Assembly (NCBI RefSeq): GCF_002727185.1
Contig: NZ_NIZW01000002.1
Span: 434,001 to 498,000 of the forward strand
Direction of reading: 5' to 3'
Source: Rhodopirellula bahusiensis
Lineage (GTDB): Bacteria; Planctomycetota; Planctomycetia; Pirellulales; Pirellulaceae
DNA length: 64,000 bases
The notes under the pieces were generated by a model, which saw nothing but the letters and a program-made list of their open reading frames with translations, searched no databases and was not told the DNA's origin. Shown in pieces: positions 3,819-57,966 of the stretch; within the stretch, counting starts at the first letter, position 1, and the number at the start of each line of letters is the position of its first letter. The translations under genes and the position numbers were made by a program.

Positions 3819-4086
3819 GTAGCCGGATTCGCCAGAATTCGGAATTGGCGAGGGAGATCTGCGCGTCCGAATTCTTGGCGAATCCGGCTACTGCTTTCTC
3901 GCCTCGCTTTGTTCCAAAGCATCGGCTGGGTCGCCATGTGAGACATGGCCTACAACAACCTGTAGCTCGGTGGTCCCCCACCGAGACGAGACTGGATTCT
4001 GCTTCAGGAACTCACGGTGGGGGACCACCGTGCCACGGATCGCGTCGTCGCTCTGGCGTAGCTGGATTCGGCCGAATTCGGACGGC
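3819..4086. repeat. REP cluster 1 (families B, C, A)
   Basis: This is a tight array of palindromes. Family B (GTAG head, stem CCGGATTC / GAATTCGG) occurs at 3819-3850 (+), 3863-3891 (-) and, degenerate, 4058-4086 (+). A hairpin GCTTTG-TTC-CAAAGC lies at 3906-3920. Family C (GTAG, stem GCCATGT / ACATGGC) is at 3930-3953 (-). Family A (GTAG, stem CTCGGTGG / CCACCGAG, tail ACGAG) is at 3962-3990 (+), with an inverted GTGG-headed partner (stem CACGGTGG / CCACCGTG) at 4011-4036. The first element begins 30 nt after the SecA stop, head first. The block 3819-4036 recurs at 6005-6223. The rest of the 432-bp gap to the next gene shows nothing else recognisable. Confidence 0.9.
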
Positions 4087-4220
4087 GGCCGAGCGAATTG
4101 ACTTTGGATACGTTATCACCGCAACAATGAGGAACATTCGGTTAAACGAGATGGACCGCACAACCGATAAATTCGGCAGGGTCTTGGTCATTTAACTCCG
4201 CCTTCTACGGTCATTGGCTC

Positions 4221-5882
4221 ATGAATTTCGAACGCATGTGGGAAGTCGTTAAACGGAACGTCAACCCGTTCAAGGGAGCGAATAAACCGAAATTGGTTGC
4301 TTTGGATCAGTTGATCCAAAGAATCGGCACGAACCTCGGATCGAGTCTTATCCGTCTGTCTGAAGGCGACTGGGTACACGACCAATTCAATTTCACATGG
4401 GTCCAGTCGCTAACCGAGCCTGAGTTCCAGGAATTTCGGGGGATGTGGCTAAGCTGTTTTCAGTCACACAATCGTTCCGGACATCAACGGCCGCAGACTG
4501 CTGCGTCTCCAGATTTCCGCCGATTTGCCGAGGAAGAACCTGATGGTCCTGACTTAGGATTACCAATGGCTGCGTCTCCAAATTTTAACCGACTTGTTAA
4601 GCCGGAGGCTGAGCGTCCTACCATCGAATTTGCATTGGCTGCGGCTGGACATCGATTTGCCAATGTCGTCAGCGATGCCGACCGGAAACAAATGCTGTCG
4701 ACGCTGAGCAACGATGAATTCTGGAATGGCCTTCAGTTCGTGAAGGAGAAGTATCAGAAGATTGCTTCGGAGCGAAACATTGGCAACCTTCGCAGGGCAT
4801 TCCTCGCCGTTCAAAGCATCGGCAATTCCGTTTCGGACAAGCTGTTCCAAAACAAGTACTTTGGCGAGTACGCAGCCAAAGCCGACTTGATCAACAACAT
4901 CTACGATGACGCGGCAGCGAATGGACCGCAGAGCAGTTTGGAGAACAAACTGTTGGTAGCCGGTGGGCTTTGGCGGGTCGTCAAGACAACGCTTTCACTG
5001 GCCTTTGGTGGCATTGTCATGCATGCCAGTACCAGCCCAATGAAAGTGCTGAAGAAATCACTTGGTGCACTCAACGCACTGGCAGGGATGGTTGCCGGAC
5101 TTTCTGATTTGCTTCTCGGTAATAATCCAAATTTCCAACCACTAACGGGGCGTGCCGGTATCGACGCGAAAATCGAAGAGTACAAGAGGCAAGTCCTCGG
5201 CCCAGGATCGCATCAAGAAGGTGACACGATTCGGCGTCAGATGGAAGATGGTCCAGCGCGACTGATGAAGAGTTCTGATATCACGATCTATGACTTGGAC
5301 AAAGTTCGTGATCTGATCAAGCGTTCGCTCTGGTGGTGCAAAGTCTGGGAGGCGGATATCAAAGAGCTTCGTCGTGACTGCGCCAGCAATTTTGGAAATT
5401 CGAATTTGACGAGTGGATTGAAGGAAGCCGTTGGCGATAAATCAGCCAACGACGTCGTGAAGCTCAATGCTGCCATTGATGCAGAGAAGGTAAAGCAAAA
5501 CGAGAAGATTAAAACGTTGGAAGCCAACGTTGCTAGCTCGAAAGCTTTCTACGGGAATCGCCTAGCGATCATCAACGATTTGCTGGCTGCGTCGGAAACG
5601 CGATTGAGCATCGCACGCAAGCAAGCCAAGTCCGCAGCCGCCGGGCAATCGTATGACATCTTGAGGCAAATCGCCGTGGAGGCATCTGGGTTCGATCGGT
5701 CAAACCTGAAGCCAGTCAAACCGTCAGAGATTCAACGTAAGAAAACGGTTTGGAAAAAACCGGCGGGAATAACACGAAAGAGCGTGTTGGAAGAAATCGA
5801 TGCAGCGATCCAACATGGAGACCGCAACTTATCGATCGCGTCTTTCACGGATGACGACATTTCGTTGGAGGCCGCTGCTTAG
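4221..5882 (+). CDS. Orphan hypothetical protein, 553 residues, between REP arrays
   Basis: I do not recognise a family. The protein begins MNFERMWEVVKRNVNPFKG at the ATG 4221. A short internal duplication is visible at about residues 95-130 (AASPDFRRF and AASPNFNRL). A hydrophobic, possibly membrane-associating region spans roughly 245-302, and the last third (about 355-500) is rich in charged heptad-like helices suggesting coiled coil. There is no signal peptide and no catalytic motif I can point to. Its sequence looks AT-richer and its codon choice less GC-biased than its neighbours, by eye only. It is flanked by near-identical REP arrays in direct orientation, so acquisition or mobilisation is possible. 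Alternatives are a phage- or toxin-related structural protein or a lineage-specific orphan. Coding status is likely because of length and open frame; function is unknown. Confidence 0.65.
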   Translation: MNFERMWEVVKRNVNPFKGANKPKLVALDQLIQRIGTNLGSSLIRLSEGDWVHDQFNFTWVQSLTEPEFQEFRGMWLSCFQSHNRSGHQRPQTAASPDFRRFAEEEPDGPDLGLPMAASPNFNRLVKPEAERPTIEFALAAAGHRFANVVSDADRKQMLSTLSNDEFWNGLQFVKEKYQKIASERNIGNLRRAFLAVQSIGNSVSDKLFQNKYFGEYAAKADLINNIYDDAAANGPQSSLENKLLVAGGLWRVVKTTLSLAFGGIVMHASTSPMKVLKKSLGALNALAGMVAGLSDLLLGNNPNFQPLTGRAGIDAKIEEYKRQVLGPGSHQEGDTIRRQMEDGPARLMKSSDITIYDLDKVRDLIKRSLWWCKVWEADIKELRRDCASNFGNSNLTSGLKEAVGDKSANDVVKLNAAIDAEKVKQNEKIKTLEANVASSKAFYGNRLAIINDLLAASETRLSIARKQAKSAAAGQSYDILRQIAVEASGFDRSNLKPVKPSEIQRKKTVWKKPAGITRKSVLEEIDAAIQHGDRNLSIASFTDDDISLEAAA

Positions 5883-5911
5883 TCGGGAAGAGGGCATCGT
5901 CCGGTCGTTTT

Positions 5912-6223
5912 GTAGCTCGGTGGTCCTCCACCGCGACGAGCCTTGTTTGCTTCAGTAACTCACGGCGGGGGACCACCGTGCTACGGATTGTGTTGTCGCT
6001 CTCGTGTAGACGGATTCGACAGAATTCGGAGTTGGCGAGGGAGGCCTGTGCGTCCGAATTCTTGGCGAATCCGGCTACTGTTCTTCTCGCCTCGCTTTGT
6101 TCCAAAGCATCGGCTCGGGTGCCATGTGAGACATGGCCTACGACAACCTGTAGCTCGGTGGTCCTCCACCGAGACGAGCCTGGATTCAGTCTAGTGACTC
6201 ACAGTGGGGGACCACCGTGCTAC
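5912..6223. repeat. REP cluster 2 (families A, B, C)
   Basis: Elements in order: family A at 5912-5940 (+), its inverted partner at 5959-5984 (-), family B at 6005-6040 (+) and 6050-6077 (-), the GCTTTG-TTC-CAAAGC hairpin at 6094-6108, family C at 6119-6141 (-), family A at 6150-6178 (+) and its partner at 6198-6223 (-). The segment 6005-6223 repeats 3819-4036 in the same orientation with only scattered differences. The first element lies 29 nt after the stop of the orphan gene, head first. The last lies 4 nt after the stop of the oppositely oriented phosphodiesterase gene, also head first for that gene. The 345-bp gap is almost entirely REP sequence. Confidence 0.9.
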
Positions 6224-6227
6224 AGGT

Positions 6228-7013
6228 TCATTGCGTTTCGATGCGGTCTTCGAAGCGTTCGATTGAAATCGCTTTGCCGTCGGCGTCGGCTTCGATGATC
6301 GCGCCGCACAACCGGACGTCTCTCGTCGCCACGTGAAAGTGACTGGGCTCAAAGCTGATCGTTGCGTTGGTCACGCGTTTGATGTCACGTCCGATGATGC
6401 TGTCGTACGGACCGCTCATTCCGACGTCGCACTGAAACGCGGTTCCGCCCGGCAAAAGGCAGCTGTCGGCGGTCGGCACGTGTGTGTGCGTTCCAAGCAC
6501 CGCGGTCACCCGTCCGTCCAGATAGCGACCCAGGACTTGTTTGTCGCTCGTCGCTTCCGCGTGCACATCGACCAAGATGCAACGTGGGTTCTCAGCGGCC
6601 ATTTCATTGAGTGCCGTGTCGACCGCTGTAAACGGGCAATCGACCGGACGCATGAAGACTCGTCCGAGCAATGAAATCACACCAAGCCTGCCGCCGGGTG
6701 TCTGAACGACGGTCCAGGTTCGTCCGGAAGAACTCTCCGGGTAGTTGGCCGGACGGACAATCCGTTGGCTGGACTGAAGGATCGGGATGATCTCTTTGCG
6801 GCGATAGATGTGGTCGCCCATCGTCATCACGTCCACGCCCGCTTCGATCAGCCGTCGGTACTGGCGAGGCATCAACCCCGCGCCATCGGCTGCGTTCTCA
6901 GCGTTGATGACCACCGCATCGAGACGGTGTTTTTTGCGAAGTTCCTCGGTCCGCGCAAGCACGCCGGAGTAGCCGGGTTTGCCTACGACATCGCCGAGAA
7001 ACAAAAAACGCAC
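6228..7013 (-). CDS. YmdB/TIGR00282-family metallophosphoesterase
   Basis: This 261-residue protein opens with MRFLFLGDVVGKPG and continues with the metal-ligand blocks VVINAENAADGAG and TMGDHIYRRKE, then VHAEATSDK and GTHTHVPTAD. These are the conserved motifs of the YmdB family. Members are cytoplasmic dinuclear-metal phosphodiesterases acting on 2',3'-cyclic nucleotides, and in Bacillus they affect RNase Y-dependent RNA turnover and developmental behaviour. Length fits the family (about 260). The start is a GTG at 7013 with AAGGA at 7020-7024 about 6 nt upstream. It lies 81 bp downstream of, and in the same direction as, the S1-domain gene, so a two-gene RNA-related operon is plausible. 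The role of this homologue is inferred from the family only. Confidence 0.88.
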   Translation of the reverse strand: MRFLFLGDVVGKPGYSGVLARTEELRKKHRLDAVVINAENAADGAGLMPRQYRRLIEAGVDVMTMGDHIYRRKEIIPILQSSQRIVRPANYPESSSGRTWTVVQTPGGRLGVISLLGRVFMRPVDCPFTAVDTALNEMAAENPRCILVDVHAEATSDKQVLGRYLDGRVTAVLGTHTHVPTADSCLLPGGTAFQCDVGMSGPYDSIIGRDIKRVTNATISFEPSHFHVATRDVRLCGAIIEADADGKAISIERFEDRIETQ

Positions 7014-7094
7014 ACGGAGTCCTTGCGGAGAAGGTCGTTGCCAAGCTGCACGTCATTCCGAATGCCGTGCAGCAAAATCCTGCCAGCAGATTGC

Positions 7095-8771
7095 TTACCA
7101 GCGGAGGCCGAATTTCTCGCCGCCGCTCGGACGGTCATTGCCGCCCTTGAGAGGCCCGGAGTGCGACGCTTTGACCGCCAATTCGCGTGGTGGCTCGTCG
7201 ACTTCTTCGACCTTTTCACCCTCGGCAGCCGGTTTGGCGTGAGCGGCTTTGATCGACAAACCGACCTTTTGCGAGTCACGATCGAAGCTCATGATTTTCA
7301 CGTCGACTTCGTCACCAACGTTGACGACCGAGCTGACGCGCGAAACGCGGTGCGTTGCCAATTCGCTGATGTGGCAGAGTCCTTCGACACCCGCGGTCAA
7401 TCGCACGAACGCACCGAATTCAGCGGTCCGTGTGACTTCGCCCTTGTGCACCGAACCAACCGCGAACATGGACTCGGCGGTGTCCCATGGGTTTTCCAGC
7501 AAGTCACGATAGGTCAGCGACATCTTGCCAGATTGCTTGTCGATCTTGTCGACGCGAACCTTGACGTTCTGGCCTTCTTCGATGACTTCGCTCGGATGCT
7601 TGATTCGTTCCCAGCTGAGTTTGCTGACGTGGATCAGGCCATCGAGTCCACCGACGTCGACGAATGCACCAAAGTCGCGAACGCTGCGGACGACACCTTC
7701 GAGGATGTCGCCGGGTTCGATTTTTTCGAGTTGTTCTTGGCGTTTGACTTCGCGTTCTCGTTCCAGGATCGCACGACGCGAAAGAACCAGGTTGCCGCGG
7801 CGAGCGTTGGCTTCGGTGACCAAGCAAACCATTTTCTGGTCGACAAATTCGCTGCAGTCTTCAACTCGGTATTCCGAGATTTGGCTGATCGGCATGAACC
7901 CGCGAACGCTGCCGACTTTGCATTCCAAGCCGCCGTTGTTGTGGCCGGTGATCGTGGCTTCGACCACGCTGCCTTCGTCGATGTCGTCCCAATCCGAGAC
8001 TTCGGTCGCTTTGCCGGGCAGGCTGCACGAATACAAGCCGTCCTCGGAGTTGATGCCGCGAACGATGACTTCGATCGATTGACCGGGGGTTGGTTCTTCG
8101 TCGGTGAATTGTTCGAAAGCGACTGTGCCTTCGTCGGGGCCGCCCAAGCTAACGAACACGTTGTCTTGATGGATCTTCAGCACTTGAGCGTGAACGCGAG
8201 CACCTTCACCCAGCGGTTCGCGGCGGTCGGGCAGTCCGGCGTTGCCGCCAAGGATCGTGTCCAAATCGGCTTCCGCCAATGTGGCGTCGAGTTCCGCTTG
8301 TAGGTCGTCGCTCAGTTGATCGCGAACGTTGGGGACCGCCGTTTTCTTTTGTTGCGGCACGTAAGGCTTTTCGCTTTTGTCACGTTGCTTTTCACCCGCC
8401 AAACGTGGCAACGGAGCGTCTTTGCCGCCCGATTTGCCTTCGCCGGGTTTGCCGCCGCGTTTCCCTTTGTGCTTGACCTTGCCACCTTCGAGCTGGTCGG
8501 TCGAGACCGCTGCGGGAGAAACCGGTTTGGCAACTCCCAATCCGCGAGCCGCCAAGGGACCGCCGCCGATTCGCGGCAGGGGAGCCTTGTTTTTCTTTTG
8601 CCCGGCTGGTTTGGGGCTGCTCGGTTTGGCTGGTTCCGCGGGGGCCGGCGACGCCGATTCAGCCGGAGCCGATTCTTGCGAGGCAGGGGCCGCAGCCGAG
8701 GCTTCCGGGGTGGGGGCGTCCGAAGTTGGGGTTTCGGCCGTTGCGTCGGTGGATGGTTCGCCGCTGCTCAT
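7095..8771 (-). CDS. S1-domain RNA-binding protein (ribosomal protein S1-like)
   Basis: The 558-residue protein has four S1 OB-fold repeats at about residues 185-255, 260-330, 345-415 and 428-505. The third and fourth are the most canonical (RDFGAFVDVGGLDGLIHVS and AEFGAFVRL...GLCHISEL). S1 proteins bind mRNA leaders at the 30S subunit, and related multi-S1 proteins act in RNA metabolism. The first about 180 residues are unusual: an Ala/Pro/Ser/Glu-rich stretch followed by a Lys/Gly-rich basic segment, probably disordered. E. coli S1 has six repeats, so this is a shorter form with an added tail. The ATG at 8771 begins MSSGEPSTDATAE. A YmdB-type gene follows 81 bp downstream. It may be the main S1 of this organism or a paralogue; the window cannot decide. 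Confidence 0.85.
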   Translation of the reverse strand: MSSGEPSTDATAETPTSDAPTPEASAAAPASQESAPAESASPAPAEPAKPSSPKPAGQKKNKAPLPRIGGGPLAARGLGVAKPVSPAAVSTDQLEGGKVKHKGKRGGKPGEGKSGGKDAPLPRLAGEKQRDKSEKPYVPQQKKTAVPNVRDQLSDDLQAELDATLAEADLDTILGGNAGLPDRREPLGEGARVHAQVLKIHQDNVFVSLGGPDEGTVAFEQFTDEEPTPGQSIEVIVRGINSEDGLYSCSLPGKATEVSDWDDIDEGSVVEATITGHNNGGLECKVGSVRGFMPISQISEYRVEDCSEFVDQKMVCLVTEANARRGNLVLSRRAILEREREVKRQEQLEKIEPGDILEGVVRSVRDFGAFVDVGGLDGLIHVSKLSWERIKHPSEVIEEGQNVKVRVDKIDKQSGKMSLTYRDLLENPWDTAESMFAVGSVHKGEVTRTAEFGAFVRLTAGVEGLCHISELATHRVSRVSSVVNVGDEVDVKIMSFDRDSQKVGLSIKAAHAKPAAEGEKVEEVDEPPRELAVKASHSGPLKGGNDRPSGGEKFGLRW

Positions 8772-8908
8772 GGACAGTCAGGGGGGATCTGAGAAAGAGT
8801 GAAATGGCAATCGCGCCAAAGGCGTCCCGCAGTCTAGCAATCCGGAGGGCCACTCGGTAGCCTTCCCTCGTTCTGACTCAGCACAATCCACCGACAACCT
8901 TCGAGACC

Positions 8909-9436
8909 ATGCCTAACTTTGACGATTGCACGTCTTCTGCCGCATCGAATTCGGGCGACTTGCCGTCCTGGTTGACCGATTTGGACGCATCCGTCGCCCA
9001 GCCATGGATCGCCGCGATTTCTGCCGCGGAAATGCCAGGTTTGGGCGAAGGGCCCACCAACCGTGAATTGGCGGATTTGCTTCGAGGCGAGACGGCCAAA
9101 TCGTTCACGCCGCTTCAACGCAGCGGATTGTGGTTGTTGGCTGGGGACCTGGATCGGTCGCACACCATCAGCCAAGACGAAGGTTCGTCCGAGGGAAGTT
9201 TTTGGCACGGGATCATGCACCGCCGCGAAGGGGACTTTGGCAACGCAAAGTACTGGTTCCACCGAGTCGGCCGGCATTCGATCCTGAGCGATCTGTCGGG
9301 CATGTACCCGGAATTGCATGCCGATGCGGATGAGTTCGTCGATCGCGTCGCAAACGCCGTGCGAACTGGGGAGGACGTCGAGGAATGCCAGCAAGTCCAG
9401 TGGACCGAGTGGCAGTGGCTGATGAACGTCAGTTGA
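8909..9436 (+). CDS. Conserved hypothetical protein, 175 residues
   Basis: A soluble 175-residue protein starting MPNFDDCTSSAASNSG, divergent from the S1-domain gene across a 137-bp gap. There is no signal peptide or membrane segment. Its most characteristic part is about residues 95-125 (WHGIMHRREGDFGNAKYWF then HRVGRH), which I associate with uncharacterised bacterial proteins, including planctomycetes and acidobacteria, without a known function. The His/Trp/Tyr-rich block could be a ligand or metal site, but that is conjecture. An acidic tail ends in WTEWQWLMNVS. It is followed 14 nt after the stop by a family B REP in the inverted orientation. Coding potential is good because the frame is open and the composition is protein-like. 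Function is not assigned. Confidence 0.65.
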   Translation: MPNFDDCTSSAASNSGDLPSWLTDLDASVAQPWIAAISAAEMPGLGEGPTNRELADLLRGETAKSFTPLQRSGLWLLAGDLDRSHTISQDEGSSEGSFWHGIMHRREGDFGNAKYWFHRVGRHSILSDLSGMYPELHADADEFVDRVANAVRTGEDVEECQQVQWTEWQWLMNVS

Positions 9437-9450
9437 ATGGTTTGTCGCTG

Positions 9451-9689
9451 GGGAACCGAATTCTTGGCGAATCCGGCTACACCATTGCGAACCACAATCC
9501 AACCAACCTGTAGCTCGGTGGTCCCCCACCGAGACGAGCGCAACTCGAGCGATGTGGGCGTTCCTGCCTGCCAATGGCGAATGTTTGGGGATACGCCTCG
9601 CTTTGTTCCAAAGCATCGGCTGGGGTGCCATGTGAGACATGGCCTACGGCAAAACAACCTGTAGCTCGGTGGTCCCCCACCGAGACGAG
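9451..9689. repeat. REP cluster 3 (families B, A, C)
   Basis: Family B (-) at 9451-9480, family A (+) at 9510-9538, the GCTTTG-TTC-CAAAGC hairpin at about 9600-9614, family C (-) at 9625-9647, and a second family A (+) at 9661-9689. The two A copies are separated by about 122 bp of otherwise unique sequence. The cluster occupies almost the whole 301-bp gap between two convergent genes. Here the first element after each flanking stop codon is oriented tail first, unlike most other clusters in the window. Confidence 0.88.
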
Positions 9690-9737
9690 CGCAATCGAAG
9701 ACTGCGACTTGCTCCAGCCAGCCCTCCAAGCGTCTGA

Positions 9738-10793
9738 CTACTTCCCAGCGACGCTGGCTTTGGTGGGGCGTTGGACGTCGGTGATCAGTCCCATCATCTC
9801 CCAAACGCGGATGATGCCCCAGGACATATCGAACTCGTACCACTTGTGACCGTGGCGAGCCGAACGTGGAGTCGCGTGGTGATTGTTGTGCCAACCTTCG
9901 CCGTGACTAATCAATGCAACCAGCCAATTGTTGGTGCTGTGATCTCGCGTTTCGTAATTGCGATACCCGAACACATGGCTGAGCGAGTTCACTGACCATG
10001 TCCCGTGCAGGACGAAAACGGTTCGCATCGCGACTGCCCACACCGTCCAAGACAGCAAATAGCGGTAGGACACGGCCCAATCGCCACCGCTGACCGCGTA
10101 TCCGACCACTCCGCCGATCAACGAAATGACGATTGCGTGGAAGACGAAGACAAAGAACCATCCGTCCTTGCGTTCGAGTTTGAGGTAAAAGCGGTCTCTC
10201 AGCAAATCGCGAACATAGCGTTCGTAATGGCTGGTCTTGTCGAGATCTTTGTGTCGGCAAACGACCCAGCCCATGTGTCCCCAAAGGAAGTTGACCAGTG
10301 GCGAGTGCGGGTCGGGCTGGTGATCACTGTGTTGGTGATGCATCCGGTGAATCGCAACCCAGCGTGCGGGGCTGTCTTGCAGGTTGCACATGCCCAGAAT
10401 CGCGAGCGTGTGTTCCATCCACTTCGGGCATTTGAAGCCGCGGTGGGTCAGCAATCGGTGATAGCCGATCGTGATGCCGAACATGCCAAAGATAAAATGG
10501 CCGGCGATCCCGGCGATGAGGCCCGACCAAGTGAACAGGTACGAAAACCAAGCTGGAACGAAAGCCGCCAAAGCGACCAAATGGACCAGGGACAGCACGA
10601 TCACGTATTGCCACATGATTCGAAGTGGCTGGGTTTCTTCCGGGCGAGGCAATCGCTGCGGATCGATGCCAGATTCGCCGACGGCCATGGCTTCTGTCGG
10701 GACGGCGCCAGACCCGAAATCGTTGGATTCGTCGAAAACCAACTTGTCGCGTTTCGCGGCTTCAGTTGGAGCGGGGGCTTCGGATGTCGACAT
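9738..10793 (-). CDS. Fatty acyl-CoA/delta-9 desaturase
   Basis: This 351-residue integral membrane desaturase has the three diagnostic histidine boxes. They are HRLLTH at about residues 112-117, HRMHH at 149-153 and HNNHH at 302-306 (preceded by GEGW), which bind the di-iron centre. Hydrophobic pairs before box 1 and between boxes 2 and 3 give the usual four-helix topology. The reaction is oxygen-dependent introduction of a cis double bond into saturated acyl chains (stearoyl-CoA desaturase-like), so the gene likely sets membrane fluidity. The ATG at 10793 (MSTSEAPAP) was chosen over a TTG two codons upstream. About 50 polar residues precede the first membrane segment. It follows the small basic protein gene in the same direction but is separated from it by a probable terminator. 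Confidence 0.9.
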   Translation of the reverse strand: MSTSEAPAPTEAAKRDKLVFDESNDFGSGAVPTEAMAVGESGIDPQRLPRPEETQPLRIMWQYVIVLSLVHLVALAAFVPAWFSYLFTWSGLIAGIAGHFIFGMFGITIGYHRLLTHRGFKCPKWMEHTLAILGMCNLQDSPARWVAIHRMHHQHSDHQPDPHSPLVNFLWGHMGWVVCRHKDLDKTSHYERYVRDLLRDRFYLKLERKDGWFFVFVFHAIVISLIGGVVGYAVSGGDWAVSYRYLLSWTVWAVAMRTVFVLHGTWSVNSLSHVFGYRNYETRDHSTNNWLVALISHGEGWHNNHHATPRSARHGHKWYEFDMSWGIIRVWEMMGLITDVQRPTKASVAGK

Positions 10794-29540: not shown

Positions 29541-29559
29541 CCAGGGTCGCTAGTCGTAC

Positions 29560-29741
29560 GTAGGGCTTCCAAGCCCGACGAAGTGGTCGGTTGACCAGGC
29601 TGTTGACTCAATACGGTTCGCAGATGGAGCAATCAGCCAATGGGCGATCGTCCACGGTTACCGAGACGAACCGAATGCGATCGCGTTCTGGCTGAGTCAA
29701 GCAACCGGTTGTAACTCGACGGGCTTGGAATCCCATCGTAC
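29560..29741. repeat. REP pair between DUF3467 and epimerase genes (families H, G)
   Basis: Family H at 29560-29583 (+): GTAG head, stem GGGCTT / AAGCCC, tail CGACGAAG. A G/H hybrid sits at 29715-29741 (-): GTAC head, stem GATGGG then ATTCC and AAGCCC. The two face each other (heads outward) and each begins 19-22 nt after the stop codon of its neighbouring gene, head first for that gene. About 130 bp of unrelated sequence separates them. Confidence 0.75.
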
Positions 29742-35408: not shown

Positions 35409-35510
35409 GTACGATGGTCTTCCAAGACCGTCGAGGCAGCAATCTCCGTACGATGGTCTTCTAGACCGTCGAGACGGCTACCTACGTACGATGGTCTTCT
35501 AGACCGTCGA
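35409..35510 (+). repeat. Three tandem family G REPs
   Basis: Copies at 35409-35435, 35448-35473 and 35486-35510, repeat period 38-39 nt, all in the same orientation: GTAC head, stem GATGGTCT / AGACCGTC, loop TC or TTCCA, tail GAG. Copies 2 and 3 share a loop (TCTTCTAGA context) different from copy 1 (TTCCAAGA). The array starts 4 nt after the fusion-peptidase stop, head first, and its end lies 10 nt from the stop of the oppositely oriented thioesterase. Confidence 0.85.
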
Positions 35511-36353: not shown

Positions 36354-36477
36354 AGGAACGCTTTGTAACAAAGCACCCGGCCAGGCGTCAGGTGAGACCA
36401 CCCAAGTGGCATAGGCTTCCAGCCTGTGAGTCCCTGCCCTTCATCCCTGCAAGGCGGCATCGCCTTCCAGCCTGTGT
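36354..36477. repeat. REP group upstream of the sulfatase (families F and I)
   Basis: A GCTTTG-TAA-CAAAGC hairpin near 36354-36375 is followed by a GTGG-headed family F element (stem CATAGGCT / AGCCTGTG) at 36406-36429 (+) and a degenerate relative (core GCATCGCCTTCCAGCCTGTG) at about 36454-36477 (+). These lie in the 256-bp divergent gap between the thioesterase and the sulfatase, so they are promoter-side copies, in contrast to the mostly 3'-end copies elsewhere. Confidence 0.75.
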
Positions 36478-41530: not shown

Positions 41531-41794
41531 ATGGCAGAGCTTCTCCAAGAAACAATGGATCAAATCCGGGCTCATCTCTTGGAAGGGAAAAAGCTCAAGG
41601 CAATCAAGCTGTACCGAGAAGCGACGGATTCATCACTTATTGAGTCCAAGGAACAAATCGAGAAGCTCAGCGAAGAGCTTGAGAAATCACACCCTCGACA
41701 AATGGCCGACAACAAACCCATCGGCTGCGCCGGAATCCTCTTGCTCGCCGTGGCCGGCGCAGGTTTGGTGGCCAAAAGTGGCATAGGCTTCTAG
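41531..41794 (+). CDS. L7/L12 C-terminal-like small membrane protein
   Basis: The 87-residue protein begins MAELLQETMDQIRAHLLEGK, then KLKAIKLYREATDSSLIESKEQIEKL, which resembles the ribosomal protein L7/L12 C-terminal fold (KxxAIKxxRExTxxxLxEAKxxVE) used outside the ribosome in several bacterial proteins. A C-terminal hydrophobic stretch (IGCAGILLLAVAGAGLVA) should act as a membrane anchor. The last codons GIGF and the stop TAG come from a family F REP element that starts at 41778, so the native C-terminus was probably different before the element arrived. The ATG at 41531 gives the shortest family-like N-terminus. Function unknown; a protein-protein interaction module is inferred. Confidence 0.7.
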   Translation: MAELLQETMDQIRAHLLEGKKLKAIKLYREATDSSLIESKEQIEKLSEELEKSHPRQMADNKPIGCAGILLLAVAGAGLVAKSGIGF

Positions 41795-41850
41795 CCTGTG
41801 AATAAGAGGGGCAACGAAGGTATAAATCACAGGCTGGAAGCCTATGCCAC
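41778..41850. repeat. Inverted REP pair shared by the L7/L12-like and RAYT genes
   Basis: Two family F elements (GTGG head, stem CATAGGCT / AGCCTGTG, loop TCC or TCT) at 41778-41801 (+) and 41827-41850 (-). The heads point outward. The plus copy ends the upstream gene: its TAG at 41792-41794 is the stop. The minus copy ends the transposase gene: its codons GTG GCA TAG are the last two residues and stop. The arrangement is a typical BIME-like pair. Confidence 0.92.
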
Positions 41851-42546
41851 TTTGGGGACCGGTTCGCCGGCTTGGATTCCGAGTTTCGAACGAATCCGAG
41901 CTGATGACCATTGGAAATCTTCCGCACGGTCCACTAATCCAGCCACGACAGGATTCTGCTCGATGTAGTGGATGATTCGAAGCAACTCCTCTTGATCGCG
42001 GGCGTAGTGATCGAAAGTCTCCGCTTGCCAAAATGCACCTTCACCGCCACGTGCTCGATTGCACTGCGTCCCCGTGAAGCTTTGGATGCTGTGTGAAATG
42101 CCTTCACGTGGAGTGCGTTTCTTTTCCTTGTCCTGTTGTTGGGCTAAAAACTGTTCCGCCCAAGTTGGATCGGGCAGGAACACCCAATGGTGATGGCTTG
42201 GCATCACAACGAATGCGAACAGCGTGTAGCGTTCCCCCGCGAAATGAAGGAACGCGTCGGCGACGATCTTTGCAAGCCGATCATCGCGAAGATGTGTCAC
42301 TGGTGACTCACCATCCAGGATGGAATCCACCAGTTTGAAAAGCAACTTGTGCTTCTTCATTTCCCAATCGGCGTCACTTAGGTCGAGAGGCTTCTTGCGT
42401 TGATCGAATTCATCACGATGAGCACGGATGCGTTTCAAACCAGCGGCTGGCAAACTGCCATCCAAGCAGGCCGTGATGAACGATGCTTTGCCCTCGACAT
42501 CGATGTGAGGCAGATTGCGACGTCGGAAAACTTTACCCTCATTCAT
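41842..42546 (-). CDS. REP-associated tyrosine transposase (RAYT, Y1/HUH superfamily)
   Basis: The 234-residue protein has the HUH motif in AFVVMPSHHHWVF (His118-His120; canonical pattern MPNHxH) and the RAYT C-terminal block FWQAETFDHYARDQEELLRI then HYIEQNPVVAGLV, with candidate catalytic Tyr181 or Tyr194. RAYTs are single-copy, domesticated-looking relatives of IS200/IS605 transposases that nick and move REP elements with GTAG or GTGG heads. A Shine-Dalgarno AGGAGG at 42553-42558 supports the ATG at 42546. The gene sits between two REP groups of family F, two copies on the 3' side and three on the 5' side, which should be its substrates. There is an insertion of about 35 residues (EQFLAQQQDKEKKRTPREG region) before the Trp motif. 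No second transposase gene occurs in the window. Confidence 0.92.
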   Translation of the reverse strand: MNEGKVFRRRNLPHIDVEGKASFITACLDGSLPAAGLKRIRAHRDEFDQRKKPLDLSDADWEMKKHKLLFKLVDSILDGESPVTHLRDDRLAKIVADAFLHFAGERYTLFAFVVMPSHHHWVFLPDPTWAEQFLAQQQDKEKKRTPREGISHSIQSFTGTQCNRARGGEGAFWQAETFDHYARDQEELLRIIHYIEQNPVVAGLVDRAEDFQWSSARIRSKLGIQAGEPVPKVA

Positions 42547-42558: not shown

Positions 42559-42669
42559 GTGGCATAGGCTTCCAGCCTATGATTGAGACTGCGTTTGCTC
42601 TTTGTGAATCACAGGCTGGAAGCCTGTGCCACTGTGCAGGTTTGATCACAGGCTGGAAGCCTATGCCAC
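42559..42669. repeat. Three family F REPs upstream of the RAYT gene
   Basis: Elements at 42559-42582 (+), 42609-42632 (-) and 42646-42669 (-): GTGG head, stem CATAGGCT or CACAGGCT, loop TCC, stem AGCCTATG or AGCCTGTG. The first borders the RAYT Shine-Dalgarno by one base, so the transposase is translated from an mRNA with REP hairpins in its leader. The last ends 3 nt from the stop of the DUF3500 gene, head first for that gene. Confidence 0.9.
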
Positions 42670-46672: not shown

Positions 46673-47247
46673 AGGATTGACTCGGCAGGCGGGGAGGGGC
46701 AGGCGGGACAGTGACCCGAGCCGACAGCGCGGAACAGATCAAATTGCAGCCAACAGCTTAACTGATCCGAGAGGGGGGCTTGGTCGTCCGCCTATGCCGC
46801 CGGACTGGTGCGAGTGAGAAGTCATTTCCGCGACGGTGGGCTTGTTCGCGTCAAGCCGATGGGATCAAAGCGAGTGCAGCGTTTCCTTTTTCTTGCCTAA
46901 GTTCCCGAGATGGCCAGGTTTGACACCGGATTTGCTAGTAATCGCAATCCAGATCACGAATCATTTTCGCGGCAACCGTGGAAGGGGGGTTCGATCTCTC
47001 TTGGCAACCTGTAACGATAGGGCATCTTGAGAAGTTTTGGAGTCCCGCCATCCATGACGGTTGTGCGGTAAGCAAGGATGCCCCCCTGACGAATTTTGAC
47101 CTGTCGTCAAAGAAACGCCATCATGCTTTCCATCCACCTAGCAGAGTTATATGCTAGGACGAAAGACGACCCAAACTCACTATCCTGCCCCGGCGAGCCA
47201 AACAGTTTTCGAGTTGCCCACCTGATCGGCCCACCGCCTGAGACCGT
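46673..47247. other. 575-bp divergent intergenic region before the FAAL-ACP gene
   Basis: The gap separates the aminoacylase/beta-lactamase gene (-) from the fatty acyl-AMP ligase gene (+). I found no RNA gene, repeat family or additional protein. It contains an AT-rich stretch and the inverted repeat CCTAGCA / TGCTAGG (47137-47158), listed separately. The size is generous for a promoter region, so an unrecognised short RNA remains possible. Confidence 0.45.
47137..47158. promoter_or_regulatory. Inverted repeat, possible operator of the FAAL-ACP gene
   Basis: A perfect 7-bp inverted repeat, CCTAGCA at 47137-47143 and TGCTAGG at 47152-47158, with an 8-nt AT-rich spacer (GAGTTATA), lies about 90 nt before the start codon. 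The spacing suits a helix-turn-helix dimer such as TetR family. No such regulator is encoded nearby, so this is a weak candidate. Confidence 0.3.
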
Positions 47248-49638: not shown

Positions 49639-49897
49639 GTAGGCCATGTCCCACATGGCGACCGTGTTGGGGGCTCGTTCGCTGTTTGGAATGCTGTCGA
49701 TGTGGCGAATGATCCGGAACGCGACGATCGCCAGGTGGAACCTGGCCTACGGTGGGCATCGACAGAGTAGAACATTTGTCCCCAAATGTTTGCGTGCGTG
49801 GTGTCTGTTGTCGTGCCACATGACGCGGTCGTTGTTGAGCGTTCAGCGAGTCCGGTGTGATCCCGCGTTTCACCTTGCCAGGTGGAACCTGGCCTAC
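49639..49897. repeat. REP cluster after the FAAL-ACP gene (families C, D, E)
   Basis: Family C at 49639-49663 (+) (GTAG, stem GCCATGT / ACATGGC). Family D at 49721-49750 (-) and 49875-49897 (-) (GTAG, stem GCCAGGT / ACCTGGC, loop TCC). Family E at 49777-49804 (+) (GTAG, stem AACATTTG / CAAATGTT, loop TCCC). The last D copy contains the stop codon of the membrane protein gene that follows: its head GTAG supplies TAG at 49896-49894 on the minus strand. About 70 bp between 49804 and 49874 shows nothing recognisable. Confidence 0.88.
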
Positions 49898-51433: not shown

Positions 51434-51496
51434 TTTCGAATTCTTGGCGAATCCGGCACCATTTCTTCCCGGATCACTGAGCGACAACGGTTCTAC
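51434..51496 (-). repeat. Degenerate REP pair upstream of the MATE gene (families B, E)
   Basis: Family B-like (-) at about 51434-51459 and family E-like (-) at about 51476-51496 (GTAG head, stem part AACCGTTG, loop TCG). Both are in the 240-bp divergent gap between the membrane protein and the MATE transporter. Copies are eroded: the B head reads GTGC. The same B plus E combination recurs at 57307-57369 and 57910-57966. Confidence 0.65.
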
Positions 51497-51546
51497 TTTG
51501 CTGCCGCTTCCTGACGAAAATTCACTCCCACCGAATCATCCCCCTC

Positions 51547-52950
51547 ATGATCTCCGCGCTCAAGGAAGTTCTTCGCGTTGCGGTTCCGTTGATGGTCAGC
51601 ACCGGCATGTTTTCGCTGGTTTTGTTCGTCGATCGAACGCTGTTGCTGTGGCACGAGCCTTCTCAGATGGGTGCGGCGATGGCGGCCGGCAACCTGTTCT
51701 GGGTGTCCGTTTGTGTATTCGTTGGCATCGCGTCGATGACCAGTGCGATCATCAGCCAGTACATCGGTGCGGACCAACCCAAGCGAGTCGGCCAGCTGCT
51801 GTGGCAGTCGACTTGGTTCGCACTCGCGACGCTGCCGTTTTTCATTTTGGTGGGAAGTTTTGGTGAGTCTCTGTTTCAGTTCACGGACCAGCCCGAGCAT
51901 CTGATTCCGATGCAGGCCGCTTACTTCCGCATCTTGATGTGGGGGGGTGCGGGTGAAGTGTTGCAAACGGCTCTCTCAGGTTTCTACAGCGGAACGCACC
52001 GGACTCGCACGATCATGCTGGTGTCGCTCGCGTCCGGTGTGCTGAACTTGTTGTTGGACGTCTTGTTGATCTTTGGCGTTGGTTCGCCCGATCCCGAGAC
52101 TGGTTTGCGGTTCATGGAACTGGGCATCGCGGGAGCTGCGATCGCCAGCACGCTGTCGTTTTGGTTCAAAGCGGTTTGTTACGCGGTATTGCTGATGAAA
52201 CCCGTCGAGCGAGAACGCTATGGCATTTTGCGTGGCATTCGAATCAACCGTCGAATGATGAAGCGGTTGATCTACTTTGGTTTGCCGGCCGGGTTGATGT
52301 ACGTCACCGAAGCGGGAGGCTTCACCGTCATCGTTTTGCAAATTGGTCGACTCGGCGACGTCCCACTGCAAGCCACCACGATGGCGATCAACTTCAACAT
52401 GATCGCGTTCATCCCCTTGGTCGGAATGTCGATCGCTGCATCCGTTCTGGTCGGCCAACATCTCATTCGGACTGGGCCGGGGCCCGCGATCCGCTGTGTG
52501 ATTGCAGCCTTGATCGTTGGTTGGGCCTACTCGTTGGCCTGGGCGGTCGCGTATGTGTTCACGCCCGGCGGCTTGATCGCTCTGTATTCCTTGTCGCCAA
52601 CGGGAGTGGACAGCGAGGTTGCGTTTGAGATCGCCGAAAAACTTTTGGGCTTCGTTGCGATCTACGTGATTCTGGACGCGACACAATTGATTTTGGCGGG
52701 AGCACTTCGCGGGGCGGGCGATACCTGGTTCGTGTTGTTGGCTGGGCTGGCGGTGTCGTTTGGGGCAGTGATTGTGGGTGCGGTGTGGCAACCTGTCGCG
52801 GCCCGTTTCCAAGACCCGGACGGCCAAGCGGCGGCCTTAGCGGCGTTGGATTGGTGGTGGTGGGTGATTACGGGTTGGGTCTGCACCCTCGCAATCGTCA
52901 TGGCCGGACGTTTTTTGCAAGGCAGATGGCAACGGATGCGGATGGTTTGA
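51547..52950 (+). CDS. MATE family efflux transporter
   Basis: The 467-residue protein has twelve predicted membrane helices in two six-helix halves. Characteristic MATE segments are [19 protein letters not shown] at the start, [43 protein letters not shown], and in the second half [16 protein letters not shown] and [24 protein letters not shown] transporters expel cationic drugs, dyes or metabolites in exchange for Na+ or H+. Length is normal for the family (450-480). The ATG at 51547 follows a short leader. It is co-directional with aconitase downstream, but the two have separate probable promoters and their functions do not obviously belong together. Confidence 0.9.
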
Positions 52951-53035
52951 TTCCACCACTACGGTTTTCCGAGACGCATTGCTAAACTGTTGGCCGCTCA
53001 GCACTATTCGGCAATTCGACAACAGGAAACATGCA

Positions 53036-55741
53036 GTGACTGCGGATATCTTCGGCGCACGCGAACAATTTGAAACCGGATCCGGCTCTGCAGCGATGTA
53101 TCGCTTGGAGGCCCTCCAGAAACGAGGCTTGGGGCAGATCGACCGCTTGCCGTTTTCGATTCGCGTGCTGTTGGAAGCCGTGTTGCGAAATTGCGACGGT
53201 TTTCAAATCAGTGAAGACGACGTCAAGAATCTCGCCGGCTGGGACGCGAAAGCGGTGGCTCCTCACGAAGTGCCGTTCAAACCTTACCGCGTTGTACTGC
53301 AAGATTTCACGGGTGTTCCCGCCGTCGTCGACTTAGCTGCGATGCGTTCTGCCATGGAACGAATTGGTGGCGACCCGAACAAAATCAATCCGTTGATCCC
53401 CGTTGACCTGGTGATCGACCACTCCGTGCAAGTCGACTTCTTCGGCAGCGACGGAGCGCTCGTGCAAAACGTCGAGCGTGAATTCGAACGCAACAAAGAG
53501 CGTTACGAGTTCCTCCGCTGGGGACAACAAGCGTTTGATAACTTCGGCGTGGTTCCGCCCAACGTTGGGATTGTTCACCAAGTCAACTTGGAATACCTCG
53601 CTCGCGTCGTCGCGATGGGCAAAGACGAACAAGGCCCCGTGGCGATGCCCGACACCTTGGTCGGCACGGACTCGCACACGACCATGATCAACGGTTTGGG
53701 CGTGTTGGGCTGGGGAGTCGGCGGCATCGAAGCCGAAGCCAACATGCTTGGCCAACCGCTCTACATGTTGATGCCAGAAGTCATCGGTTTCGAGCTGACC
53801 GGCGAATTGCCTTCGGGTGCAACCGCGACCGACATGGTGTTGCGAGTCGTCGAGATCCTGCGTGCCGAAGGCGTTGTCGGGAAGTTTGTGGAGTTCTTTG
53901 GAACGGGCATGAACGCAATGAGCGTTGCTGACCGAGCCACGATCGCCAACATGGCGCCCGAGTACGGTGCCACGATGGGATTCTTCCCCGTCGATGATTT
54001 GACGCTGCATTACATGCGTCAAACCGGACGAAGCAAAGAGAACGTTGAACTGGTCGAACGTTACTGCAAAGAACAGGGACTGTTCCGTTTGGATGACGGC
54101 CCGACGCTGAACTACACCAAGACCGTTTCGCTTGATTTGTCGACGGTCGAACCCAGCTTGGCCGGTCCAAAACGTCCGCAAGACCGTGTGCCGCTCGCGA
54201 CGATGAAAAAGGCGTTCAACGAGTCGTTGACGGCTCCCGTTGGTGCATCCGGATTTGGACTTGCTCCTGAAGCACTCAGCCGTACCGGGCACGTTTCGAA
54301 CAACGGTGCCAGCTCCGATATCACACACGGTGCTGTCGTAATCGCCGCCATCACTTCGTGCACGAACACGTCCAACCCATCGGTGATGGTTGGTGCCGGA
54401 TTGTTGGCCAAGAAGGCTGCCGAGCGTGGTTTGACGGTCCCGTCACACGTGAAAACGTCGCTGGCTCCTGGTTCGCGAGTCGTGACGGATTACTTGAACA
54501 AAGCTGGTTTGTCCGAGTCGCTCGACAAGCTCGGTTTCAACACGGTTGGCTACGGCTGCACGACTTGCATCGGCAACTCGGGGCCTTTGCCGGAACCCGT
54601 TGCAGCGGCAATTCAAGAAGGCGACTTGATCGCTTCGGCGGTCCTCTCCGGCAACCGAAACTTCGAAGGCCGCGTCAATCCGCTGACGAAGGCCAACTAT
54701 TTGGCCAGCCCACCGTTGGTCGTCGCGTACGCTTTGGCCGGAACGACGGACATTGACCTGAACACTGAACCACTCGGCAAAGACACCAACGGCGATGAAG
54801 TGTTCTTGAAGGACGTGTGGCCATCGGCCGATGAAATTCGCGACACGATCGCGTCTTGCATCCAACCCGAAATGTTCACCAACGAATATGAAGCCGCCGT
54901 GTCGGGCAACGACATGTGGAACGCAATTGAAGCGGCCGGCGGAGCCCTCTACCCGTGGGACGAAAAGAGCACTTACATCCACCACCCACCATTCTTGGAC
55001 AGCGTCACCGCGGAAGCCGTGCCGGACATTGCTCCGATCAAGGGAGCCAAAGTGCTGGCACTTCTCGGCGATTCGGTCACGACTGACCACATTTCGCCTG
55101 CCGGAGCAATCGCGACCGACGGACCTGCCGGACGTTACCTGCAGGAAAACGAAGTGCCAATTCGCGAATTCAATTCGTTCGGTTCGCGTCGCGGGAACGA
55201 CCGAGTGATGGTGCGTGGAACGTTCGCCAACATTCGCATTCGCAACCAGTTGGCACCGGGCACCGAAGGCGGTGTGACACGTTACTTGCCAACCGGCGAA
55301 ACGATGAGCATCTACGACGCGTCCATGAAGTACCAAGCTGACAACGTGCCATTGGTCGTGTTGGCTGGCAAGGAATACGGAACCGGCAGCAGCCGTGACT
55401 GGGCTGCGAAGGGGACGATGATGTTGGGCGTCAAAGCCGTCATCTCGGCCAGCTTCGAACGTATTCACCGCAGCAACTTGGTCGGGATGGGGGTGTTGCC
55501 ACTGGAGTTTGCCGACGGCAATTCGTGGCAGTCGCTCGGTTTGACCGGCGAAGAAAGCTACGACTTCGATGGCTTGTCCAACGACCTGGAACCTCGTTCG
55601 TTGATCACCGTCGTCGCGACAGCGGCGGATGGCAAAAAGACCGAGTTCGAGTGCCGCGTTCGCATCGACACCCCGGTCGAATTGCAGTACTACCAGAACG
55701 GCGGCATCCTGCCGACGGTTCTACGAAACCTCCGCGGTTGA
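53036..55741 (+). CDS. acnA: Aconitate hydratase, AcnA type
   Basis: The 901-residue protein converts citrate to isocitrate through cis-aconitate in the TCA cycle, in the cytoplasm. The [4Fe-4S] ligands are Cys442 ([12 protein letters not shown]), Cys508 and Cys511 ([10 protein letters not shown]). Other marks are [22 protein letters not shown], the hinge [27 protein letters not shown] and [16 protein letters not shown] near the C-terminus. Length and motif order fit bacterial AcnA/IRP1-type aconitases (about 890-920). The start is a GTG at 53036 with AGGA at 53023-53026, which gives [16 protein letters not shown] 57 nt upstream would add 19 unconserved residues. It lies between the MATE gene and the spermidine-synthase-like gene (24-bp gap), so the latter may be co-transcribed. 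Confidence 0.95.
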
Positions 55742-55765
55742 TTCTGGCGTCGAGCTGAATAGCAA

Positions 55766-57310
55766 GTGATCCATCGCGCCCCGCTGCATCTGCTGTATCT
55801 CAACGTGCTCGTCATTGCGACGTGCGGGTTGATCTACGAGCTGCTGGCGGGGACGCTGGCGAGCTACCTGCTGGGAGATTCGGTCACTCAGTTCTCGTTG
55901 ATCATCGGTGTCTATCTCTCCGCGCTGGGATTTGGGGCTTGGTTGTCTCAGTACGTGACTTCCAAGCTCGCTCGAGTGTTTATCGAAGTCGAGTTGGCCC
56001 TCGCGTTGTTGGGTGGTTTTTCCACGCCACTTCTGTTTCTCGCCTTCCCGATGATCGAGTGGTTCCAGTGGCTGCTCTTTGGCAGCGTGATCGTGATCGG
56101 CACGCTGGTGGGTTTGGAACTTCCGCTGTTGATGCGGATTCTGAAAGAGCATCTCGAGTTCGAAGAACTCATCTCACGAGTCCTCGCATTTGACTATCTG
56201 GGTGCCCTTTTCGCCTCGCTGTTGTTCCCGATCTTTTTGGTGCCCAAGCTGGGGCTGAACCGGACCGCGATTGTATTTGGTTTGCTCAACGCATTGGTGG
56301 GGCTTTGGGGGACGTATTTGCTGCGTCCTTTGCTTGCGAAGAAGGGTTTGGATGGTCTTCGAGGGCGAGCGTTCTTGGTGATTGGATTGCTGATCGTCGG
56401 GTTCATCAAAGCCGATTCGATCACCAGCATCGCGGAAGAGAACACACTGGGCGGCCGCATTGTCTACGCCGACACCTCGCCTTATCAACGCATCGCGGTG
56501 ACTCGCAACGACAAAGGTTTCCAGCTCTACCTGAATGGTCACTTGCAGTTCAACAGCGTCGACGAATACCGCTACCACGAGGCTTTGGTGCATCCGGTCA
56601 TGTCCGTTTGCGAGGACGCACGTCGAGTCTTGGTGCTGGGTGGCGGTGACGGTTTAGCGGTTCGCGAGATTCTACGATACGACCATGTTGAGTCGGTCAC
56701 GCTGGTGGATTTGGACCCGGCGATGACGCGGTTGGCGACCCAGTTTGAACCGCTGGCGGAACTGAACGGACGATCCTTGGAGATGGCCCGGGTCACGGTG
56801 GTCCATCGGGACGCTTTTTTGTGGGTGGGAGAAGGCGACGAGCAATTCGACGCGGTCGTGATCGATTTTCCTGATCCAGGCAATTACTCGATCGGGAAGC
56901 TGTATTCGTCGCGTTTCTACAATTTGCTTCGAGAACGGATGACGGAAGACGCCGGATTGGCGATTCAGTGCACCTCGCCGCTGGTTGCCCCAAAGTCCTA
57001 CTGGTGCATCCTGCGGACGATGCAATCGTCTGGCTTTGACGTCACGCCCTACCATGCACCCGTGCCGACGTTTGGGATCTGGGGGTTTGCTTTGGCGCGG
57101 ATTGCTCAGGATCCGGACTCGGATTTGAATTGGCGTCTGCCACCCCAGCTTTCGCCGGAGATGACTGGTTTACGATATCTCACGCCTTCCACGATGGCGA
57201 GCCTCTTTGATCTGCCCGCGGATCAACAACCACAGGACGTCCCGCCCAATCGCCTGAACGATCAGATCCTCGTGCGTTTGTACGACGAAGAATGGGGCCA
57301 AAACCAGTAG
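55766..57310 (+). CDS. Membrane spermidine-synthase-like protein (polyamine aminopropyltransferase)
   Basis: The 514-residue protein joins an N-terminal membrane domain of about six to seven helices ([71 protein letters not shown]) to a C-terminal Rossmann methyltransferase-like domain. The latter has [29 protein letters not shown] and [18 protein letters not shown]. These match the spermidine synthase family with an extra membrane region. The membrane form is common in bacteria, and its substrate is often unproven. The start is a GTG at 55766, 24 nt after the aconitase stop. The stop TAG lies inside a family B REP head, so the REP has supplied the end of the gene. Confidence 0.85.
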
Positions 57311-57369
57311 CCGAATTCGCCAAGAATTCGGTCCCTACGAGAGTAGAACAATTGTCCCCAATTGTTCCC
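57307..57369 (+). repeat. REP pair at the spermidine-synthase-like gene's 3' end (families B, E)
   Basis: Family B at 57307-57334 (+): GTAG head, stem CCGAATTC / GAATTCGG, loop GCCAA. Family E variant at 57343-57369 (+): GTAG head, stem AACAATTG / CAATTGTT, loop TCCC. The first head contains the TAG stop codon (57308-57310) of the upstream gene. Confidence 0.9.
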
Positions 57370-57484
57370 TCGGGCATCGCTCTCGGTCGTGTCTGGTTGC
57401 TAGCCGAATTGACGTGTTGATTCAAGTTGAAGTTGCACCCCATTCGCGCTGAGCGTCTCGACTTCGCCAACCTCGCACGCAAAA

Positions 57485-57906
57485 AGGTCGTGCAGATCTA
57501 AATGCTGTGCCGGCAGCGTCTTGAGAACCCCGCCCGCGCAGGAGGTCGTGCAGTTTTTAAATTGTTGTATTGCCACGCGTTTATCATCACCCTCCCCTTG
57601 GGAGGGTCGAGCGAAGCGAGGGGAGGTCTCAGCATTGAATCCGGCGCGTAACCCTCCCCGGCCCGAAGCGGGCCGACCCTCCCAAAGGGAGGGTGAAATA
57701 AAACTGCACGACCTCCGAAGTTGGGAGGGGACGGAAAGCGAGCGTTCAGCGAGATTTCCTGGGGAGGGCAACCCGCGCCGTTTCCCATGCTCGGCCCTCA
57801 CCTCGCGTACGCCTGAACGGCGTCGCTCTCCCCAAACTGCGTTTCAGGAGAGGTGCGCCGCGTGAAAACCCGACAAAATGCCGCACCAGAAAACTGCTCG
57901 ACCTCC
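57485..57906. repeat. Nested palindromic, MITE-like non-coding element
   Basis: Perfect 17-nt inverted arms GGAGGTCGTGCAGTTTT at 57541-57557 and its complement at 57700-57716 enclose about 140 bp. Inside, a second near-perfect inverted pair (CACCCTCCCCTTGGGAGGGT at about 57588-57607, and its complement at about 57677-57696) brackets a third set of short palindromes (GGCCCGAAGCGGGCC at 57660-57674). Partial outer arms occur at 57485-57496 (+) and 57890-57906 (-, one mismatch), so an older, larger copy surrounds the inner one. It encodes no protein and could be a miniature inverted-repeat element or a folded RNA. It fills most of the 664-bp gap. Confidence 0.65.
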
Positions 57907-57909
57907 TAG

Positions 57910-57966
57910 CAGTTGGGGACAACGGTTCTGCTCTGGGGGAAGTCCGAATTCTGGCGAATCCGGCAA
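57910..57966 (-). repeat. Degenerate REP pair 3' of the DUF1501 gene (families E, B)
   Basis: Family E-like (-) at 57910-57931 (head GCAG, stem part AACCGTTG, loop TCCC) and family B (-) at 57942-57966. The B copy starts 8 nt after the DUF1501 stop, head first. The head of B is eroded to GTTG. Confidence 0.6.

Follow-up and report, generated by a model that had tools for sequence, protein, structure and literature searches.

Di Nocera et al. (2013, PMC3733652) described the GTAG superfamily of repetitive extragenic palindromes (REPs), of which different families coexist in Rhodopirellula baltica. According to that work, REPtrons are specific to their repeat where a species has more than one family, and R. 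baltica is very rich in tyrosine transposase genes that have repeats at their sides. In Stenotrophomonas and Pseudomonas (Nunvar et al. 2010, PMC2817692), genomes likewise hold several REP-associated tyrosine transposases (RAYTs), each with its own flanking REPs and a GT(A/G)G head, and the transposases reportedly coevolve with the REPs beside them. For the group 3 TnpA-REP of S. maltophilia and Marinomonas, the stem is short and a loop base is essential, and changes in the stem are better tolerated in S. maltophilia (PMC8266576). Here, we describe the REP families in a 64,000-nucleotide stretch of the Rhodopirellula bahusiensis genome (bases 434001-498000 of contig 2; hereafter the window), their copies throughout the genome (7.78 Mb in 63 contigs), and their relation to the RAYTs of the genus.

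These repeats are very probably REPs of the GTAG superfamily, which would be nonautonomous mobile hairpins copied by RAYT (TnpA-REP) HUH transposases, with each family tied to one RAYT clade, and their identification as GTAG-superfamily REPs with RAYTs can be made with high confidence. As coexisting GTAG families and many tyrosine transposases have been reported in R. baltica (PMC3733652), this kind of repeat is already known. Features in common with that description include the GTAG head, stems of mostly 6 to 9 bp, short loops, stem subfamilies with compensated changes, head-to-head dimers, and repeat-specific REPtrons. The description differs in that its heads change only in the second and third positions, whereas the family we call G/H has C in the fourth (GTAC). 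The stems and the phylum differ from those of Stenotrophomonas and Pseudomonas (PMC2817692), and there are clusters here in which A, B, and C/D are intermingled. As with E. coli TnpA-REP, inverted REP pairs flank the transposase gene, and the C/D RAYT is a clear homologue of the solved E. coli chain 4er8. However, conserved mismatches form a bulge in E. coli REPs (PMC8266576), and the subclass holding E. coli TnpA-REP has mostly longer, mispaired stems (PMC6006769), whereas the hairpins here are short and mostly perfect. Within the literature covered, itself a partial sample, we found no other papers plainly about these repeats and no biochemistry of a planctomycete RAYT; relative to that literature, the GTAC-headed family and the corresponding sites that lack a RAYT are new.

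Family scans of the window identified 36 firm or slightly degenerate elements (8 A, 8 B, 6 C/D, 3 E, 7 F, and 4 G/H) and a single RAYT:

3962..3985 (+), REP A (GTAG CTCGGTGG TCCC CCACCGAG); also 4013-4036 (-), 5912-5935 (+), 5961-5984 (-), 6150-6173 (+), 6200-6223 (-), 9510-9533 (+), and 9661-9684 (+)
3819..3842 (+), REP B (GTAG CCGGATTC GCCA(A) GAATTCGG); also 3867-3891 (-), 4058-4081 (+, degenerate), 6006-6029 (+, degenerate), 6054-6078 (-), and 9456-9480 (-)
57307-57331 (+) and 57944-57967 (-, head GTTG), further copies of REP B
3933..3953 (-), REP C/D, C variant (GTAG GCCATGT CTC ACATGGC); also 6121-6141 (-), 9627-9647 (-), and 49639-49659 (+)
49730..49750 (-), REP C/D, D variant (GTAG GCCAGGT TCC ACCTGGC); also 49877-49897 (-)
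49767..49790 (+), REP E (GTAG AACATTTG TCCC CAAATGTT); also 57343-57366 (+) and, degenerate, 57908-57931 (-)
42559..42581 (+), REP F (GTGG CATAGGCT TCC AGCCTATG) flanking the RAYT; also 41778-41800 (+), 41828-41850 (-), 42610-42632 (-), and 42647-42669 (-)
36406-36428 (+) and, degenerate, 36454-36476 (+), REP F away from the RAYT
35409..35432 (+), REP G/H, initially called G (GTAC GATGGTCT TCCA AGACCGTC); tandem copies at 35448-35470 (+) and 35486-35508 (+)
29556..29579 (+), REP G/H, initially called H (GTAC GTAGGGCT TCCA AGCCCGAC)
41842..42546 (-), RAYT of 234 amino acids, a TnpA-REP-like HUH transposase and cognate of F, with the motif MPSHHHW and Y194 followed by NP

The count omits a B-like element with 3 mismatches and the head GGTG at 51436-51460, C/D hits with 4 mismatches at 3647 and 34593, and a lone GTGG hairpin at 46978. 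It comes close to the roughly 40 elements that the initial annotation of the window had counted by eye, and both the outer limits given there (3819 and about 57966) and its single visible RAYT, now placed between F elements, are correct. That annotation also proposed eight or more families, A to H, with unrelated stems. Several distinct families are indeed present, but they number six in the window. The stems of C and D are set apart by a single compensated pair, and both are found around one RAYT (L053), so they form one family, and G and H form another because they align along their entire length, with a stem of 9 bp if the C of the head is counted as paired. A seventh family, I (GTAG CCGACNNAG GCC), is absent from the window and was found beside a RAYT on contig 3. 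Loops had been described as TCC, TCCC, or TTC throughout; this does not hold for B (mostly GCCA or GCCAA), for C/D (mostly CCC, CTC, or TCC), or for I (mostly GCC).

Heads were also surveyed by scans that did not presuppose a family. A head-blind scan for perfect stems of at least 7 bp with loops of 3 to 6, scoring the tetranucleotide on either side, found 41 hairpins in the window; GTAG was the commonest head beside them (12, compared to 4 for the next), and 10 dinucleotide shuffles of the window produced 0 GTAG-headed hairpins. When a 400-kb sample was scanned from anchored heads, GT[AG]G gave 8.86 hairpins per 1,000 heads, compared to 3.3 to 4.7 for four control heads, and the window was richer in hits than the sample (28 in 64 kb versus 41 in 400 kb). 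The same anchored scan gave 12.16 per 1,000 for GA[TG]G, an excess probably caused by a tandem array in locus L075. In the unbiased head scan of 400 kb, the top heads, GAGG and CTTT (52 each), trace to this one array and were rejected as REPs; GTAG came next, with 5 cases and a 7.1-fold excess. The array lies at about 2566-6300 of L075 (contig 3, ~282.5-286.3 kb). Its 52 repeats (GAGGCCGCGCTTCGTTGAGCGCGGAAAG) bear hairpins, the first of them are spaced at 72 bp, and the whole resembles a CRISPR array or other tandem array.

Pattern searches of the whole genome returned 370 copies in seven families (38 A, 59 B, 91 C/D, 23 E, 70 F, 57 G/H, and 32 I), while reversed-pattern controls returned 0 matches in each family search. 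Families A, C/D, and F were searched with up to 2 mismatches and B, E, G/H, and I with exact patterns containing some free positions; because the rules differ, one family's count cannot be set against another's, and degraded copies have most likely been missed. The exact A element is also present in Rhodopirellula europaea 6C, in Rubripirellula obstinata, and in a metagenome-assembled genome of the Pirellulaceae.

Stem variation among the copies is compensated. We scored compensation pair by pair among distinct sequences, taking positions left free by the search pattern as the fair test. The clearest case is pair 7 of G/H, which occurs as all four Watson-Crick pairs (GC 8, TA 5, AT 5, and CG 5) with 0 of 23 broken; pairs 3 and 4 of this family are broken in 1/23 and 3/23 sequences. 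Pair 6 of I shows four Watson-Crick types plus G-T with 1 of 15 broken, and its pair 7 is never broken; pair 5 of E has three pair types with 2 of 13 broken. Pair 5 of C/D is GC, TA, or CG with 0/29 broken, the first two types being allowed by the search pattern itself. The mismatch-tolerant searches for A and F recovered broken pairs as well, at several stem positions. The initial annotation had named variation without compensation as grounds for abandoning a common blueprint, and it is compensation that is seen, most clearly in G/H, I, and E at pattern-free positions.

The expectation that heads would prove conserved once all copies were collected held for C/D (GTAG in 89/91) and F (GTGG in 68/70), where mismatches were free to fall anywhere, and less well for A, as discussed below. 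The head was prescribed in the genome searches for B, E, G/H, and I, so these counts carry no information on its conservation. When G/H was searched without fixing the head in the available sequence of this genome, the heads were GTAC (10), GTAG (1), and ATAC (1), and at RAYT loci of the genus they were GTAC (7) and GTAG (4); the family thus departs from the GTAG/GTRG head of the superfamily, being mostly GTAC. GTAC- and GTAG-headed copies stand opposite each other at the G/H RAYT loci of two relatives and in one pair of this genome, and at L053 one copy of each kind forms a head-out pair. In the loci examined, position -1, just before the head, is rich in C in the CCTAGGCT relatives of F (10/10), GTAC-headed G/H (14/17), B' (a B-like family; 24/28), and C/D (26/36), and it is A or T before 19 of 20 E heads.

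Two family searches located 16 distinct Y1/RAYT-like places in this genome, and 5 of them are flanked by recurrent hairpins: the window RAYT with F, C2:328 with C/D, C3:116 with I, C27 with A, and C7:215 with B' (GTAG CGGAASTC GCCAA). Own-family REPs lie on both sides of the F, C/D, I, and B' RAYTs. The A RAYT is at the very end of contig C27, with A on one side and a further copy on the contig-end side at C27:136. Residues H118, H120, and Y194 are invariant in six RAYT proteins, the window RAYT included; the A1 profile matches 4er8 at E 6.8e-25, and the C/D RAYT matches this solved E. coli TnpArep chain at E 5.9e-43. On contig 27, L060 3786-4449 is a degenerate RAYT, colinear and 89% identical in DNA with an open one in a relative (L164), and neither of these two showed recurrent hairpins.

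To follow family and transposase across the genus, a profile of six RAYTs was used, which found matches in all 13 genus genomes searched, this one included. The 81 places examined comprised 7 of the 8 in this genome and 74 of the 133 listed in the twelve others, namely, matches of ~66 bits or more with second pieces of one gene omitted. Recurrent hairpins occur at 34 of these 81 places. Family labels were given to 32 of the 34 by reading the hairpin output; L181 was dropped as one palindrome seen from both strands, and L183 was dropped because the RAYT there, 829 and 918 bases away from the F-like hairpins, does not belong to the F clade. In a tree of 79 RAYT proteins (two under 150 amino acids were left out), the RAYTs of A, B, B', E, F, G/H, I, and C/D each group together, the window RAYT being the sister of an F-flanked RAYT from another genome, and the RAYT clades of F and its CCTAGGCT relative are sisters. 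The 13 labels on the 32 rows require 12 changes on the tree, the minimum, compared to at least 21 in 300 shuffles. The proposal that several RAYT-specific families coexist in one genome is therefore borne out, with A, C/D, F, and I beside their own RAYT here and seven families each having its own RAYT clade in the genus. For the other three families, no RAYT was found in this genome.

If one or two RAYTs moved all families in trans, stem families would lack partner specificity. Some features would fit such sharing: A and E have 8-bp stems and TCC(C/T) loops in common, and their RAYTs are sister clades with good support, next to A standing a CACGTTGG relative; B and B' agree in stem length (8 bp) and loop (GCCA(A)), and their RAYTs are neighbors, although this join is weakly supported (84/33); and B, E, and G/H persist without a RAYT found here. 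Yet the labels track RAYT clades at the minimum number of changes, and F, G/H, and I are rarely found near other families, with only 7 mixed pairs within 300 bp in all. We therefore regard mobilization in trans by one or two enzymes as quite unlikely and retain the pairing of each family with one RAYT clade.

Several results weigh against that pairing, or against the wider identification. No recurrent GT[AG][GC] hairpin was found at 47 of the 81 RAYT-like places, and L183 would be a mismatch if counted as F. A further stem, J, occurs at two RAYTs far apart on the tree, one of them among RAYTs without hairpins. The labelled rows include many close orthologues, so there are fewer independent cases than the shuffle test suggests. 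When each label is reduced to a single representative (16 rows), loop class needs 3 changes compared to a shuffled mean of 5.9 and a minimum of 3, which is not beyond shuffles, and stem length is weaker still (3 changes versus 3.9, minimum 3). Heads of A are GTAG in 27/38 copies and GTGG in 2/38, as degraded A copies often lose the head, and the 5' flanks of the REPs reveal no single readable cleavage dinucleotide. The window RAYT matches NF047646 (E 5.4e-18) with 65.3 bits, below the curated cutoff of 80, has no Pfam hit at E <= 0.001, and by its own sequence finds no solved relative at E <= 0.01. Finally, no transposition event was seen.

While this genome has a RAYT for A, C/D, F, and I, RAYTs of the B, E, and G/H clades were not found here in profile searches, the second of which was built from RAYTs of these three clades and accepted E values up to 10. 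By DNA comparison, the E RAYT site of two relatives (L170 and L171) corresponds to L076 9853-10745 here, where there is an open reading frame (ORF) of 133 amino acids and neither a RAYT nor an E repeat. The B RAYT site of relatives (L158 and L159) corresponds in the same way to L056 3469-4521 (contig 8), which holds a 169-amino-acid Y1 transposase of another kind (3849-4358) between repeats containing AACCCGCCGCGT; this may be a tyrosine transposase of the terminal inverted repeat (TIR) type. Two B copies (C8:317015 and C8:317143) lie ~1.4 kb from that site. The G/H RAYT site of relatives had no counterpart among the sequence stretches compared from this genome.

The three RAYTs might be missing only through assembly gaps, with their REPtrons falling between contigs, an explanation that concerns one part of the proposal made here and is compatible with the rest. 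The assembly has 63 contigs, the A RAYT sits at the very end of one of them, and REPs lie within 300 bases of several contig starts (C21:242, C43:206, C44:120, and C27:136), so such gaps have to be reckoned with. However, the counterparts of the E and B RAYT sites are inside contigs and contain other ORFs, although the RAYTs could sit elsewhere. We consider gaps somewhat doubtful as the whole explanation and hold with moderate confidence that these RAYTs are truly absent from the genome. B, E, and G/H have lost their RAYT, never had one, have it in an assembly gap, or borrow that of a sister family.

 Among same-family neighbors within 150 bp, 77 are head-out, 6 tail-out, and 18 in the same direction; only in G/H do same-direction pairs prevail (9/14, compared to 4 head-out). 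Start-to-start spacing is characteristic of the family (F 30-51, B 44-48, C/D 91-109, and I 83-121). A different family lies within 300 bp of 107 of the 370 elements, mostly as pairs of B with C/D (55), A with C/D (12), and A with B (12). Random placement gave a mean of 6 and a maximum of 17, a control that overstates the excess since it was not confined to intergenic gaps; a better control is that F, G/H, and I are almost missing from mixed clusters. ORFs of at least 120 amino acids cover 85.8% of 464 kb, and 41 of 53 elements fall outside them. Of the 12 inside, 9 are in two window ORFs, 3815-4195 (TTG start) and 8834-9640 (no Pfam or NCBIfam match), which may be spurious.

This preference for gaps would also suit hairpins that are not mobile DNA but intrinsic terminators, or RNA elements of another kind, maintained by selection at the ends of genes, and G-T (G-U in RNA) is the commonest pair at F pair 3 and B pair 4, so some hairpins could act as RNA. 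Such an origin is nevertheless highly improbable, given a head fixed on one side, head-out pairs with the spacing seen in F and C/D, seven sets of nearly identical copies scattered over the genome, matching families beside the RAYTs, and no Rfam family in the window at gathering scores. A secondary RNA role for hairpins that are mobile REPs could exist alongside.

A, B, and C elements are combined in three mosaics of similar make-up at 3819-4081, 5912-6223, and 9456-9684 of the window. Their C copies share an inner spacer (CCTCGCTTTGTTCCAAAGCATCGG) with the C/D pair adjoining the C/D RAYT, and no D half was seen beside them. Toward the other end of the window, ORF 57400-57801 (-) matches Pfam DUF1582 over 29 positions, within other palindromic repeats at 57590-57770 (CCCTCCC...GGGAGGG). 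A translated B element was considered as the source of this match and rejected, the sequence there being another palindromic repeat; DUF1582 may itself be translated repeat DNA.

Hairpin structure, stem compensation, copy numbers, the match between families and RAYT clades, and the B and E sites without a RAYT are observations; the mobility of these REPs, and what their RAYTs recognize, we infer from published biochemistry on other species. A RAYT would bind the single-stranded hairpin, reading its head and loop and tolerating stem changes that preserve pairing, and its catalytic tyrosine would cut near the hairpin. Head-out inverted pairs (REPINs) would then spread into intergenic gaps. Several RAYT lineages have coexisted in this genus. 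With such tolerance of stem changes, compensated substitutions could accumulate in a family that remains tied to its RAYT. The loop dependence of the S. maltophilia and Marinomonas group 3 TnpA-REP (PMC8266576) fits the finding of same-loop families with related RAYTs (A and E); as neither loop class nor stem length went beyond shuffles here, loop recognition is drawn mainly from that work on other species.

GTAC heads were made by mutation in that study (PMC8266576), whereas in G/H they are natural. In another species, the bases of the head determine in vitro which dinucleotide is cleaved, so the G/H RAYT lineage may have shifted its cleavage target, the two ends of a REPIN using different sites. 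We offer this natural switch of the guiding head tentatively, as a rather unlikely reading of the head counts.

Seven REP families in one genome, together with the 13 labels that pair RAYTs with REPs in 13 genomes of the genus, provide a natural test set. The families for which no RAYT was found, with two RAYT-less sites already checked, allow a test of whether REPs outlive their transposase or borrow that of a sister family. Across the set, the family follows the transposase while the letters of the stem drift under pairing.

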